From Mitsuaria chitosanitabida ATCC BAA-476 = NBRC 102408 (GTDB lineage Bacteria > Pseudomonadota > Gammaproteobacteria > Burkholderiales > Burkholderiaceae_C), in the NCBI RefSeq assembly GCF_001598255.1, contig NZ_BCYP01000013.1:1-64000 (forward strand): DNA of 64,000 nucleotides, in the 5' to 3' direction. Shown in pieces: positions 163 to 53,544 of the stretch (positions within the stretch are counted from its first letter, which is position 1; each line of letters opens with the position of its first letter). Below the pieces are notes generated by a model, which saw only the letters and a program-made list of their open reading frames with translations, made no database searches and was not told the DNA's origin. Both the position numbers and the translations under genes were made by a program.

Positions 163-178
163 GGGCACGGTGCTTGCC
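163..178 (+). promoter_or_regulatory. Sigma-54 -24/-12 promoter
   Basis: GGGCACG-GTGC-TTGCC has GG at 164-165 and GC at 176-177 with exactly 10 bases between. It matches the consensus TGGCACG-N4-TTGCW at all but the outermost bases. The inferred start near 189 leaves a 23-base leader holding an AGGAG (200-204) before the ATG at 212. Confidence 0.75.
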
Positions 179-211
179 CTTTGGGCGGACCGTCAACACA
201 GGAGTCTTTTC

Positions 212-556
212 ATGCACCTGCGCAAGCTCGCCTGGGCTGTTCCGCTGATGCTGGCCGCGACCGCGGTCCACGCGGAGAACGCCGGCAGTTTCCTGGAGGG
301 TGCCAAGCTCGCGTCGCTGGCGCGTCCGGAGGCCGCGGCCCCGGCCCACGGCCCCTCCGTCCATGCCGGCGGCGCCCATGGCGCCAACGGGACCGCCCCG
401 CGCTCGCCCGCCGCCACGCCCTCGATGACGGAGGTGCTGACCGCCGACGCCGCGGACACGGAATCGCGCTCGTCCTTCGAGATCCGGAATTTCCTGACCC
501 TGGTGGTTGCCCTGGCCCTGGTGGGCTGGATCCAGCGCCGCCGTCGCGATGCCTGA
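212..556 (+). CDS. Small exported protein with C-terminal membrane anchor
   Basis: This 114-residue protein is not assigned to a family. The ATG at 212 follows AGGAG at 200-204. An in-frame upstream codon at 137 would place the signal sequence internally. Residues 1-21 form a clear signal peptide ending in HAEN. The middle is low-complexity Ala/Pro/Gly/His. Residues about 90-107 form one hydrophobic segment (NFLTLVVALALVGWI) capped by a basic RRRR tail. This N-signal plus C-anchor plus Arg tail resembles the layout of PEP-CTERM proteins, two of which occur near 43 and 45 kb, but the Pro-Glu-Pro triplet is absent. It is preceded by a strong sigma-54-type promoter. The function is unknown; it could be a surface protein or an anchored periplasmic peptide. 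Confidence 0.7.
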   Translation: MHLRKLAWAVPLMLAATAVHAENAGSFLEGAKLASLARPEAAAPAHGPSVHAGGAHGANGTAPRSPAATPSMTEVLTADAADTESRSSFEIRNFLTLVVALALVGWIQRRRRDA

Positions 557-676
557 GGACATCGTCCGGATCGACGATCGTCACCGGAATATTTTTCAAA
601 TCGATGCGAGGCCGGGGCTGGCAATCCGTCGGGTTGCTGCAAGAATGGCCCGCGCCCCACAAACAAGGATGTACCG

Positions 677-2134
677 GTGACCCATGCGTTGATCGTGGAT
701 GACGATGTCGATTCCGTCGCCACTCTGCAAGAACTGATTGCGAGCGAGAAGTTCACCGTCTCGGTGGCCCATACCCTGCGCGACGCGCGCCGCCACATCG
801 CGCTGCAGCAGCCCGATGTCGTCCTGCTGGACCTGCAGCTGCCCGACGGCAACGGCATGGAGCTCTTCCAGGACCCGCAGCTGGTGGCCAACTCCGAGGT
901 CGTGCTGATCACCGGCCACGCCAGCCTGGACACCTCCATCCAGGCGCTGCGCCTGGGCGCCGCCGACTACCTGGTCAAGCCGATCAACATCACGCAGCTG
1001 CAGGGCGTGCTGTCGCGCGTGATGAAGCCCGCGGCGCTGCAGGCCGAGGTCGCGGACCTGAACGCCAACCTCGCCCAGAGCGGCCACTTCGGCCTGCTGT
1101 GGGGCCGCACGCCGCCGATGCAGCGCATCTACGACCAGATCTCGCGTGTGGCGGGGACCAGCGTGTCGGTCTTCATCAACGGCGAGAGCGGCACCGGCAA
1201 GGAGCTGGTCGCGCAGACGGTGCACGACCTGAGCCGCCGTCGCAAGAAGCCCTTCCTGGCGGTGAACTGCGGCGCGATCTCCCCGAACCTGATCGAGAGC
1301 GAGATCTTCGGCCACGAGAAGGGCGCCTTCACCGGCGCGGACAAGCAGCACGAGGGCTTCTTCGAGCGCGCCAGCGGCGGCACGCTGTTCCTGGACGAGC
1401 TGACCGAGATGCCGCTGGAGCTGCAGGTCAAGCTGCTGCGCGTGCTGGAGACCGGGCGCTTCATGCGCGTGGGCTCGACCACGACGCTGGACGCGGACGT
1501 GCGGGTGATCGCGGCGTCCAACCGGCCGCTGCTGCAGGCGGTGCAGGCGGGCAAGCTGCGCGAGGACCTGCTGTACCGCTTGAACGTGTTCCCCATCGAG
1601 ATGCCCCCGCTGCGCGAGCGCCTGGACGACGTCCCGCTGCTGGCGGACCACTTCCTGCGCGGCATCGGCGCGAAGGAAGGCAAGAGCAAGCGCTTCACCG
1701 CGAAGGCGCTGGCGCAACTGCAGACCTACCACTGGCCGGGCAACGTGCGCGAGCTGCGCAACGCGGTGCAGCGCGCCTATGTGATGGCCTCGGGCGACTC
1801 GGTCGACGAGCAGTGGCTGCCGCGCGGAGAGGGCGTCGAGCCCGCCGCCGCTGCCGCGCCGGCCGGGGTCGTGGCCTCGACGGCGACCGCGATGAGCGTG
1901 GCCGCGCCCGTGGCGTCGGCGCCGGCCGAGTCCTCCGGCTCGTCGGTGACGATGCCGCTGGGCAGCTCGATGGCGCAGGTGGAGAAGGCCTTCATCCTGG
2001 CCACGCTGCAGCACTACAAGCACCACAAGGAACAGACCGCCGCGGTGCTGGGCATCAGCCTGAAGACGCTGTACAACCGCCTCAAGGAGTACGCCGCCGA
2101 GGACGCCGCCGCGGCCGACAAGGCCGAGCAGTAA
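677..2134 (+). CDS. NtrC-type sigma-54 response regulator
   Basis: This 485-residue enhancer-binding protein has a receiver domain at residues 1-120 with phospho-acceptor Asp52 (LLDLQLPD) and acidic pair Asp8-Asp10. The AAA+ domain covers about 140-380 with Walker A GESGTGKE and the sigma-54-contacting GAFTGA loop. A Fis-type helix-turn-helix lies at the C-terminus (TAAVLGISLKTLYNRL). The linker at 385-425 is Ala/Ser-rich. The start is GTG at 677 with AAGGA at 664-668. No histidine kinase is adjacent, so its partner is unknown. Its own upstream region lacks a correctly spaced -24/-12 site. It is the only sigma-54 activator in a window rich in sigma-54-type promoters, which makes it a candidate master activator; that link is inference. 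Confidence 0.95.
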   Translation: MTHALIVDDDVDSVATLQELIASEKFTVSVAHTLRDARRHIALQQPDVVLLDLQLPDGNGMELFQDPQLVANSEVVLITGHASLDTSIQALRLGAADYLVKPINITQLQGVLSRVMKPAALQAEVADLNANLAQSGHFGLLWGRTPPMQRIYDQISRVAGTSVSVFINGESGTGKELVAQTVHDLSRRRKKPFLAVNCGAISPNLIESEIFGHEKGAFTGADKQHEGFFERASGGTLFLDELTEMPLELQVKLLRVLETGRFMRVGSTTTLDADVRVIAASNRPLLQAVQAGKLREDLLYRLNVFPIEMPPLRERLDDVPLLADHFLRGIGAKEGKSKRFTAKALAQLQTYHWPGNVRELRNAVQRAYVMASGDSVDEQWLPRGEGVEPAAAAAPAGVVASTATAMSVAAPVASAPAESSGSSVTMPLGSSMAQVEKAFILATLQHYKHHKEQTAAVLGISLKTLYNRLKEYAAEDAAAADKAEQ

Positions 2135-51776: not shown

Positions 51777-52741
51777 GCGGTCCTCCCGGTCGAGGCGGCC
51801 TGCGCCAGCACCGCGGCGAGCGTGCGCTCCACCAGCGTCAGCTTGAAGGCGTTGTCGGGCGTGGGGCGGGCGCCGGCCAGCAGCGCCTGCGCCGCGGCCG
51901 GGGCGCCACGGCGCAATTGCTGGTCCGCGGCATCGACGCGCCAGGGCTTGGGCGCGATGCCCCCCAGCGCGACACGGCCGCCCCCATCGCGCTGGATGAT
52001 GGCCGCCACCGAGACCAGCGCGAAGGCATAGGACGAGCGGTCGCGGACCTTGTGATACAGCTGCGTGCCGCCGACGGGACGCGGTAGCGTCACCGCGGTG
52101 ATCAGCTCGCCGGGCTGGAGTTCGGTCTCGCGCTGCGGCGTGTCGCCGGGCAGCCGGTGCAGGTCGACGATGGGGATGCGTCGGGCCTGACCATCGGGCC
52201 GCACCGTCTCCACGGTCGCGTCCAGCGCGCGCATCGCGACCGCCATGTCGCTGGGGTGCGTGGCGATGCATGCCTCGCTGCCGCCGACGACGGCGAGCTG
52301 CCGGCTCATGCCACCCTCCAGCGCGCTGCAGCCGCTGCCGGGGCGGCGCTTGTTGCAGGGCTGGTCGGTGTCGTAGAAGTAGGGGCAGCGGGTCCGCTGC
52401 AGCAGGTTGCCGGCGGTGGTCGCGCGATTGCGCAACTGGCCCGAGGCGCCGGCCAGCAGCGCCCGTGAGAGCACGCCGTAATCGCGCCGCACGCGGGCGT
52501 CGGCCGCCAGGTCGGTGTTGCGCACCAGCGCGCCGATGCGCAGGCCGCCGTCGGGCGTGGGCTCGATGCGGTCCAGGCCCAGGGGGTTGAGGTCGATCAA
52601 GTGGGCGGGGGTCTCGATCTGCAGCTTCATCAGGTCGAGCAGGTTGGTGCCGCCGGCGATGAAGCGCGCGCCGGGTCGATGCGCCGCCGCGGCGGCCGCG
52701 GCTTGCGGCGACTGCGGGCGTTCCAGGGTGAAGGGCTTCAT
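51773..52741 (-). CDS. paoB: Aldehyde oxidoreductase FAD/4Fe-4S subunit PaoB
   Basis: This 322-residue medium subunit has the FAD-binding motif [15 protein letters not shown] at the N-terminus and [20 protein letters not shown]. The Cys cluster CPYF...CNK...GCSA matches the extra [4Fe-4S] centre distinctive of PaoB. CODH-type C-terminal domain elements follow ([13 protein letters not shown] and [10 protein letters not shown]). It transfers electrons from the molybdenum site via FAD. Overlaps with both paoA and paoC (ATGA) indicate tight coupling and a fixed 1:1:1 assembly. Confidence 0.94.
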
Positions 52742-53484
52742 GCGGACCTCCGGTCGCCGGCGCCCGGCGCGGCCAGGCCGGCCACCTCCGCCAGCGCGTC
52801 CAGGATGTTCGAGTAGGCCCCGCAGCGACACAGGTTGCCGCTCATGCGCTCGCGCAACTCGTCCAGGGAGAGCAGGGGGCGGACCGCGAGGTCGGGCGTG
52901 ACATGGCTGGGGATGCCGGCCTTGATCTCCTCGAGCACCGCCGCCGCCGAGCAGATCTGCCCCGGCGTGCAGTAGCCGCATTGGTAGCCGTCATGGCGCA
53001 CGAAGGCGCTCTGCAGCGGATGCATGCGCTCCGGCGTGCCCAGGCCCTCGATGGTCACGAGGCGGCTGCCCTCGTGCATCGCGGCCAGGGTGAGGCAGCT
53101 GTTCACGCGCCGGCCGTCGAGGTGGATGGTGCAGGCGCCGCACTGGCCGTGATCGCAGCCCTTCTTGGTGCCGGTGAGCTGCAGGTGCTCGCGCAGCATG
53201 TCCAGCAGCGTGGTGCGGTTGTCCAGGACCAGGGTGTGGGTCTGACCGTTGACGCTGAGCGTGACGCGGGTGGTCGCGACCAGGTTCTCCTGAGGCGGCG
53301 GCGCGTCGGCCGGCGGGGCGGCCCCCTGGGCCGAGGCGGCCAGCGGCGCGCCGGCGGCGACCGCCGCCGAGGCGCCCGCGCCGACGATCAGCAGACCGCG
53401 CCGGGACAGCGCGCAGCCGGCATGGCCGGCGGGAGGTGGGGACGCGCTGTCGCAGGCGTCCGGGGAAACCGTGTCGAGGTCCAT
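52738..53484 (-). CDS. paoA: Aldehyde oxidoreductase 2Fe-2S subunit PaoA, Tat-exported
   Basis: This 248-residue small subunit has a Tat signal ([21 protein letters not shown]) at ~30-50. A plant-type ferredoxin domain has [21 protein letters not shown] (Cys pattern C-x4-C-x2-C...C), and the second [2Fe-2S] helical domain has CGYCTPGQI and NLCRCGAY. It exports the whole PaoABC complex. ATG at 53484 is preferred over GTG 53493 because AGGAG then lies 8 bases upstream. The sigma-54-type promoter at 53529-53544 has a 34-base leader. Confidence 0.94.
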
Positions 53485-53528
53485 GCGGGGCACTCCTGGC
53501 GGGCCGGGATCGGCAAACCAGGCAGGGC

Positions 53529-53544
53529 GGCAAGCGCCATTCCC
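53529..53544 (-). promoter_or_regulatory. Sigma-54 promoter of paoABC
   Basis: On the minus strand, GGGAATG-GCGC-TTGCC has GG (53542-53543) and GC (53530-53531) correctly spaced. The inferred start near 53518 precedes the paoA ATG at 53484 by 34 bases. Confidence 0.68.

Follow-up and report, generated by a model that had tools for sequence, protein, structure and literature searches.

The first 64,000 bases of contig C13 of the Mitsuaria chitosanitabida genome (5.82 Mb in 56 contigs), here called the window, carry a second, orphan gene for sigma-54 (rpoN2), a gene for an NtrC-type activator, and a series of intergenic sites that resemble sigma-54 promoters. Codon statistics yielded 56 genes in the window, 12.7% of which is noncoding; its GC content is 69–74% throughout (2-kb steps), and 46 of the 56 genes match a Pfam family at E ≤ 0.001, some of them under the family cut-off. 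The genome encodes two rpoN genes and also rpoS. The other rpoN (encoding RpoN1) sits behind genes named by eye as lptA/lptB-like, which is the usual place of rpoN. The window copy is not part of an lptA-lptB-rpoN locus; it is flanked by AI-2E and mscS-like genes plus one unnamed open reading frame (ORF), and proteins of Roseateles chitinivorans and Mitsuaria sp. share 95% identity with its product. The main regulatory features are the following.

12055..13467, + strand: rpoN2, second (orphan) sigma-54 of 470 amino acids, with Sigma54_AID, CBD and DBD over the Pfam cut-offs (PF00309, PF04963, PF04552)
11916..11929, + strand: sigma-54-type site before rpoN2, GGCATGGGTCTTGC followed by G; −11 is G, and the class is unlike the rest
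677..2134, + strand: NtrC-type activator, probable dedicated partner of RpoN2, with REC, AAA+ sigma-54 interaction and Fis-type helix-turn-helix (HTH) domains (Pfam)
8066..10351, − strand: hybrid histidine kinase (Pfam), a candidate upstream kinase that adjoins rpoN2 in relatives

Sigma-54-type sites in the window

A preliminary description of this DNA had reported 21 intergenic sites with the GG-N10-GC spacing of sigma-54 promoters. Bare GG-N10-GC, which it emphasised, is not more frequent in the intergenic DNA of the window than in shuffled sequence (256 vs 235 ± 15), and this loose motif was dropped as a criterion. The extended motif GGYA-N6-TTGC satisfies the same −24/−12 spacing, as judged from a spacing test and shuffles. 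It has 16 matches in the window, 13 of them intergenic according to our own gene calls, whereas dinucleotide shuffles of the intergenic DNA contained 0.27 ± 0.51 (maximum 3 in 1000 shuffles). When the spacer was varied from 2 to 12, N6 gave the 13 intergenic sites and each other spacing gave 0–2. Genome-wide, there are 188 matches, and the 172 that lie outside the window provide the fair yardstick for its density: they predict 1.9 sites per 64 kb, and 16 are seen (P = 2.5e-10). Fourteen random 20-kb regions (L161–L174) held zero sites; they had been chosen with the site positions known and are not used as evidence.

The sigma-54-like sites of the window are real in their extended form. That they are an artefact of chance or of the composition of 72% GC DNA has a negligible probability; the lack of enrichment of bare GG-N10-GC and whole-genome counts above those of a reversed-pattern control in most genomes, whether or not RpoN2 is present, would fit such an artefact, but the shuffles, the spacing specificity and the conservation and co-occurrence described below exclude it for the extended motif.

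Eleven of the 13 intergenic sites are located 35–126 bp upstream of a same-strand start; the remaining two are more distant, at 231 and 303 bp. Three more intergenic sites have the form GGAA-N6-TTGC (14255, +; 41455, −; 53543, −). Beyond these three and the 13 GGYA sites, the original figure of 21 requires weaker one-off sites, such as those before topoisomerase IB, AI-2E and the proline-rich ORF at 19315, and at 40862.

Two features absent from the preliminary description set the sites apart from the classical consensus, which the available portions of two papers give as TGGCACR-N4-TTGCW or TGGCAC-N5-7-TTGCT (PMC4371752, PMC12316311). The T at −25 of classical TGGCAC occurs in 0 of the 13 intergenic sites, and the base directly after TTGC (−11) is C in 10 of the 13. 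Accordingly defined as VGGYAY-N5-TTGCC, class B has 60 matches in the genome (11 in the window); the canonical class A (TGGYAY-N5-TTGCW) has 16. Apart from the site before rpoN2, the intergenic sites and the genes they would serve are listed below; ortholog counts refer to sites within 200 bp upstream of the ortholog start.

164..177, + strand: putative RpoN2-class site, 35 bp before a small ORF (212–556, without Pfam match) that precedes the activator gene
4842..4855, − strand: putative RpoN2-class site of a lone receiver protein (4269–4796); site in 10/10 orthologs
5108..5121, + strand: putative RpoN2-class site of 5169–5654 (without Pfam match); site in 17/18 orthologs
5755..5768, + strand: putative RpoN2-class site of a DUF883-like gene (5830–6195; DUF883_C match under the Pfam cut-off) and the genes behind it to 7370; site in 9/11 orthologs
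8039..8052, − strand: site (TTGCT) of a DUF2383 protein (7543–7998); strict form in 10/29 orthologs, GGAA-type in some others
14255..14268, + strand: GGAA-type site, 14 bp before an mscS-like gene (14282–15538); strict sites in 4/12 orthologs
19283..19296, − strand: putative RpoN2-class site of 18735–19241, with trehalose synthesis genes (15581–18738) behind it; site in 6/6 orthologs of 18735–19241
20795..20808, + strand: putative RpoN2-class site, 303 bp before a hemerythrin gene (21111–21671); site in 0/5 orthologs
23670..23683, + strand: putative RpoN2-class site of a DUF6496 gene (23719–23907); present in 0/2 orthologs
25570..25583, − strand: site 231 bp before a GSDH/PQQ-dehydrogenase-like gene (23984–25339), back to back with the next; in 2/11 orthologs
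25610..25623, + strand: putative RpoN2-class site of a TonB-dependent receptor (25673–27973)
33899..33912, + strand: putative RpoN2-class site of a REC-HisKA gene (34015–35112)
44971..44984, − strand: putative RpoN2-class site of a Crp/Fnr-type regulator (44141–44926)
53530..53543, − strand: GGAA-type site, 46 bp before 52738–53484 (2Fe-2S subunit)

The last gene heads what had been called paoABC: 52738–53484 (2Fe-2S), 51773–52741 (FAD) and 49560–51776 (molybdopterin subunit). The third GGAA-type site (41442–41455, −) has no called minus-strand gene close behind it. The Pfam-less protein 5169–5654, with its site kept in 17/18 orthologs, represents an uncharacterised family tied to RpoN2. Other residents of the cluster are a toxin-antitoxin-type pair of a HipA-like kinase and an HTH protein (21727–23516) and, between sensor-kinase genes, a beta/gamma-crystallin-domain protein with a glycine zipper (35251–36141).

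Conservation of the sites and co-occurrence with RpoN2

The motif is also abundant around rpoN2 in relatives. In 56 loci found by similarity to RpoN2 (1.09 Mb), there are 359 sites vs 41 matches to a reversed control. The 49 loci that belong to the RpoN2 clade contain 340 sites; 301 of them fall in intergenic DNA, which makes up 15.4% of these loci, and 256 of the 301 lie within 160 bp upstream of a same-strand start; the reversed motif occurs 33 times (15 intergenic, 18 genic). In five aligned promoter sets from close relatives, the motif columns are 0.81–1.0 identical to the window and the flanks 0.34–0.51; a sixth set (rpoN2) was left out because its site lies outside the 130 bp taken. Site counts are low for orthologs of the hybrid kinase (9/26), AI-2E (2/24) and SDR (1/13), and no site was found within the 200 bp before orthologs of topoisomerase IB (0/1) or of trehalose synthase (0/9), which is encoded inside the operon headed by 18735.

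In 16 of the 49 loci (L039, L041–L043, L047, L048, L051, L054, L055, L062–L065, L068, L072, L082), a total of 22 pairs of divergent GGYA-N6-TTGC sites stand back to back with under 60 bp between them; the pair in the window spans 25570–25623. At the closest pairs, two sigma-54 holoenzymes could hardly be bound simultaneously.

The association of the motif with RpoN2 was assessed in 200 genomes of the family, the own genome included, which comprise 37 genomes with RpoN2 (E ≤ 1e-125 against the window protein) and 163 without; at most 8 RpoN2 and 7 activator candidates were scored per genome, and some absences may be misses. Outside the family, RpoN2 is rarer (5 of 200 order-level genomes, including the own genome and one other family member). 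Unlinked counts of VGGYAY-N5-TTGCC, which in most genomes are higher than those of the reversed control irrespective of RpoN2 and are probably inflated by in-frame codon usage, were replaced by a start-linked pattern that requires GGA at 14–44 bases after the class B motif, followed by ATG, and can count one site twice if two ATGs fit. The window served to define this pattern, so that the other genomes provide an independent test of it.

Start-linked class B sites average 13.3 per genome with RpoN2 (median 13, range 0–33) and 2.1 without (median 2, range 0–8; P = 5e-16), whereas class A sites do not differ (2.43 vs 2.34; P = 0.67); these and the following P values ignore shared descent. The degeneracy of the two patterns differs, so that their counts in genomes without RpoN2 are not comparable and only the change with RpoN2 is used. 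Genome size is not the cause of the class B difference, because the contrast is kept among genomes of at least 4.9 Mb (means of 14.6, n = 31, vs 3.0, n = 38). Six genera contain both kinds of genomes; in three of them the contrast is clear (26 and 29 vs 2; 16 vs 1; 13 vs 1), and in one it is small (4 vs 0). The claim that the regulon is dedicated to the orphan rpoN gains support from these counts, with class B sites about six times commoner in the presence of RpoN2 and canonical sites unchanged.

RpoN2, its promoter and its activator

In a tree of 65 sequences, a branch with 100/100 support separates 30 RpoN1 from 33 RpoN2 rows and places the RpoN2 of the window in a separate Burkholderiales clade. 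The two types also differ in both elements that read DNA. Among sequences with the search pattern ARRT[VI][AT]KYR, the RpoN box is ARRTVAKYR(E/D) in 30/30 RpoN1 and ARRTVTKYRQ in 49/49 RpoN2. The RpoN2 of the window has the latter box, which differs at two residues from ARRTVAKYRE, the form found in RpoN1 and in Escherichia coli. In the HTH, SRVT is followed by T(A/Q) in 30/30 RpoN1; RpoN2 has N (47/49) and then again N (48/49). According to the part of a review that is available, the RpoN box contacts −24 and the HTH contacts −12 (PMC7057263), so the promoter and the protein have shifted in matching places; one shift may have caused the other.

It is quite unlikely that the sites are plain sigma-54 promoters read equally well by RpoN1, with RpoN2 as a dosage- or condition-specific paralogue without a promoter code of its own. 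Genomes without RpoN2 still average 2.1 start-linked class B sites, and RpoN2 of Burkholderia pseudomallei is reported, in the part of the literature available, to restore function in an E. coli rpoN mutant, which indicates that paralogues can read canonical promoters. Such redundancy would not explain why RpoN2 is accompanied by more class B but not by more canonical sites, why both DNA-reading elements of RpoN2 are consistently changed, or why the −11 base of the site before rpoN2 differs from that of its neighbours.

The last point concerns the promoter of rpoN2 itself. Its upstream site is present in 42 of the 49 clade loci (L073, one of the seven without, has no upstream DNA) and within 200 bp of the start of 41/48 rpoN2 orthologs. 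The −11 base is A or G in 40 of the 42 (one C, one T), whereas the other intergenic sites of the same loci have C in 191/216 (P = 5e-29); the −25 base is C or T in 40/42 and mostly G or C at the other sites. Since its upstream site belongs to another −11 class, rpoN2 is probably not just a further target of RpoN2. The base at −11 is relevant for telling RpoN1 from RpoN2 promoters in Cereibacter (PMC11999139), and transcription of rpoN2 is abolished in an rpoN1 mutant of Ralstonia solanacearum (PMC4371752), as far as the accessible text of these reports goes. Together with the −11 split, this suggests that RpoN1 transcribes rpoN2 in an RpoN1-to-RpoN2 cascade. Alternatively, RpoN2 might read the rpoN2 promoter with a second activator.

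Four genomes (G240, G260, G291, G346) encode two RpoN2-type proteins. One locus (L051) stems from a metagenome-assembled genome labelled Methylotenera, whose RpoN2 is nested among Roseateles/Pelomonas sequences; the contig is perhaps mis-binned.

The rpoN2 sites also bear on the possibility, very unlikely in our view, that the motif is a near-palindromic operator (GGCA-N7-TGCC) bound by a dimeric regulator inherited alongside RpoN2. Many sites read GGCA-N7-TGCC, which ranked first in a dyad search of upstream DNA. But the halves are not equivalent (GGCAY on the left, TT before GCC on the right), and the rpoN2 sites lose the palindrome through A or G at −11 yet retain GGCAY-N5-TTGC. Sigma-54 promoters have the same spacing, and the location of 256 of the 301 intergenic clade-locus sites at most 160 bp upstream of same-strand starts likewise speaks against an operator.

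The early identification of RpoN and one NtrC-type activator in the window holds up, with Pfam support for both. The activator has a Walker A motif and the motif GAFTGA (GSFTGA in the 10 orthologs looked at). At a threshold of E ≤ 1e-110 against the window protein, an ortholog is present in 36 of 37 genomes with RpoN2 vs 6 of 163 without (P = 3e-32). The NtrC-type protein (677–2134) is the probable dedicated partner of RpoN2, as judged from this co-inheritance. Its gene occurs within the 10-kb flanks of rpoN2 in 9 of 56 loci, and in 3 of these 9 it adjoins topoisomerase IB as in the window. On a 424-kb Comamonadaceae plasmid (L210), a single small gene lies between the activator gene and an rpoN that encodes the ARRTVTKYRQ box; the module can therefore sit on a plasmid. 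A BLUF-domain gene is located behind this rpoN. Parts of the module duplicate, as G274 and G359 encode three activator orthologs each.

Candidates for the binding site of the activator that came up in k-mer and dyad searches upstream of 281 sites were discarded: the copies of GCTG-N11-CAGC look like coding ends of orthologous upstream genes, and TTGCNGCAA and TCGGTAAA stem mostly from the intergenic region between rpoN2 and its neighbour.

The hybrid kinase 8066–10351, a possible source of the phosphoryl group, is encoded near rpoN2 in 26 of the 56 loci scanned (more than 35% of the self score); the other kinases of the window are outside the distance covered by the 10-kb flanks of the relatives' loci. 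The same applies to an operon considered as a signal source (27990–33733), which comprises RsbRD_N, STAS, HATPase, SpoIIE-type and hybrid kinase genes, a set resembling a stressosome or partner switch; no strict site precedes it.

The regulon and its relation to known systems

Among the 57 of 60 class B sites of the genome that were looked at, 48 are intergenic, 39 of them within 150 bp of a start. Of these 39, 32 lie outside the window and mark candidate targets; 20, partly chosen by look, were compared with Pfam first and the other 12 later, and the latter fit a stress theme less well. The Pfam families among the 32 are GrpE, Nramp, PRC-barrel, hemerythrin, DUF421, DUF3309, EipA, Mpo1-like, Host_attach, Gly-zipper, FGE-sulfatase/DinB_2, two lone receivers, a PQQ-domain protein, ankyrin, two glycosyltransferase-type proteins, GNAT, Gfo/Idh, Exo_endo_phos, MCP, phosphatidylserine decarboxylase, a Na/sulfate symporter, HlyD and a weak HTH match. 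Judging by no more than their first letters, the genes behind intergenic class A sites resemble those of secreted proteins and of a transporter permease. In the neighbourhood of rpoN2 in relatives, Pfam matches include Ku, LigD, catalase, CsbD, CBS, BON, Transgly_assoc and hemerythrin; they come from ten hand-chosen proteins, nine of which matched, and their genes are at most candidate targets.

The stress theme proposed at the outset appears clear in the window and the neighbourhoods of rpoN2 and mixed among the 32 targets elsewhere, while its periplasmic oxidation component is weak, given that the site of the PQQ-dehydrogenase-like gene is found in only 2/11 orthologs. RpoN2 might also control a genuine regulon that does not serve the response to stress, the theme having been read into genes of unknown function; this is unlikely, though less so than the alternatives above. 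Many targets are DUFs or lack a Pfam match, and many of the 32 belong to transport, metabolism, envelope or chemosensing (Gfo/Idh, GNAT, phosphatidylserine decarboxylase, Na/sulfate symporter, HlyD, MCP). On the other hand, hemerythrin, trehalose, MscS, GrpE, PRC, DUF883 and DUF2383 in the own genome recall stress regulons, as do the hand-chosen Ku, LigD, catalase, CsbD and BON genes of relatives; moreover, topoisomerase IB, MscS, trehalose genes and catalases are among the members of the alphaproteobacterial EcfG regulon, according to the available text.

The evidence is best explained by a specialised sigma-54/activator pair with a stress-leaning regulon, a reading that we regard as probable. 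RpoN2, an anciently diverged second sigma-54 altered in both DNA-reading elements, would direct RNA polymerase to the variant promoter VGGYAY-N5-TTGCC, without T at −25 and with C at −11. Promoter opening would be driven by the co-inherited NtrC-type response regulator (677–2134), which at least one hybrid kinase presumably phosphorylates. The predicted output comprises DUF883, DUF2383, hemerythrin, trehalose, MscS, PRC-barrel, GrpE and receiver genes together with metabolic and envelope genes. The rpoN2 promoter, with A or G at −11, would be read most simply by canonical RpoN1, placing RpoN2 second in a cascade.

Several observations weigh against a dedicated, stress-leaning pair. Two of the six mixed genera (g136, g3) lack the contrast in class B sites (3 vs 3; 4 vs 4), six genomes with RpoN2 contain 0–4 such sites, and unlinked genome-wide counts do not discriminate between genomes with and without RpoN2 (200 order-level genomes). 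Six genomes carry the activator without RpoN2 at the threshold used, and the searches upstream of the 281 sites revealed no activator binding site. In the window, the sites before the hemerythrin (0/5), DUF6496 (0/2) and PQQ (2/11) genes are not kept in orthologs. Seven of the 32 outside targets lack a Pfam match, and roughly half belong to general metabolism, transport, sensing or the envelope. Finally, the genome also has rpoS, so that some of the target genes may use other promoters; the RpoN2 system would therefore be an additional branch and not a replacement.

A wider proposal, offered tentatively because the balance of probability falls slightly short of it, is a general stress response of Burkholderiales run by sigma-54, with RpoN1 and RpoN2 as an orthogonal pair. 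RpoN1, answering the nutrient state, would turn on rpoN2 from a promoter poorly read by RpoN2; RpoN2 and its phospho-activated partner would then use the promoters recoded at −25 and −11 to transcribe several dozen genes, many of them protective. A class of factors known for nitrogen and motility would in this way take the role of sigma-S, sigma-B or EcfG, and an ATP-dependent activator would gate the response to stress. What is put forward here for one clade of second RpoNs is a function, a promoter code and a partner. If the proposal is true, sigma-54 becomes one of the few known general-stress factors, the recoding at −25/−11, with its matching changes in RpoN box and HTH, provides a natural pair for studying how sigma-54 reads DNA, and the orthogonal set of sigma-54, activator and promoter may serve as a tool. 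Among titles and the beginnings of abstracts, with subscription papers mostly outside the scope, no open-access paper describing the RpoN2 regulon was found.

A second rpoN is reported in many Burkholderiales in the accessible text on Ralstonia solanacearum (PMC4371752). The rpoN2 of this species, a possible member of the clade, resembles the present case as a second Burkholderiales rpoN that needs rpoN1, which matches the proposed cascade, but in the portion available no phenotype was found and "its role remains enigmatic" (PMC4371752). RpoN2 of B. pseudomallei, also a possible member of the clade, is needed for expression of katE (PMC4745423) and likewise serves a stress gene, although this is the one target reported in the part available. 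Sigma-54s on plasmid records of other Burkholderia are 39.5–42.5% identical to the RpoN2 of the window.

A close parallel in kind is Cereibacter (Rhodobacter) sphaeroides, where, according to the available text, RpoN1, RpoN2 and RpoN3, with NifA, FleQ and AprX, each have their own gene set and activator. Like these paralogues, the RpoN2 described here has its own clade and its own −11 promoter base. The Cereibacter outputs are nif, flagella and an Xre regulator, whereas the regulon proposed for Burkholderiales is broad and stress-leaning, and its promoters deviate from the canonical one at both −25 and −11. In output, the system is reminiscent of EcfG/PhyR of Alphaproteobacteria, which shares the target types topoisomerase IB, MscS, trehalose and catalase (PMC6599016); in the text accessible, however, EcfG is an extracytoplasmic function (ECF) sigma factor under a NepR/PhyR partner switch, with a different promoter. 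Specialised sigma-54 paralogues are thus a known kind; the output, the double recoding and the breadth of the system in the window appear to be new, as judged from the open-access papers covered.

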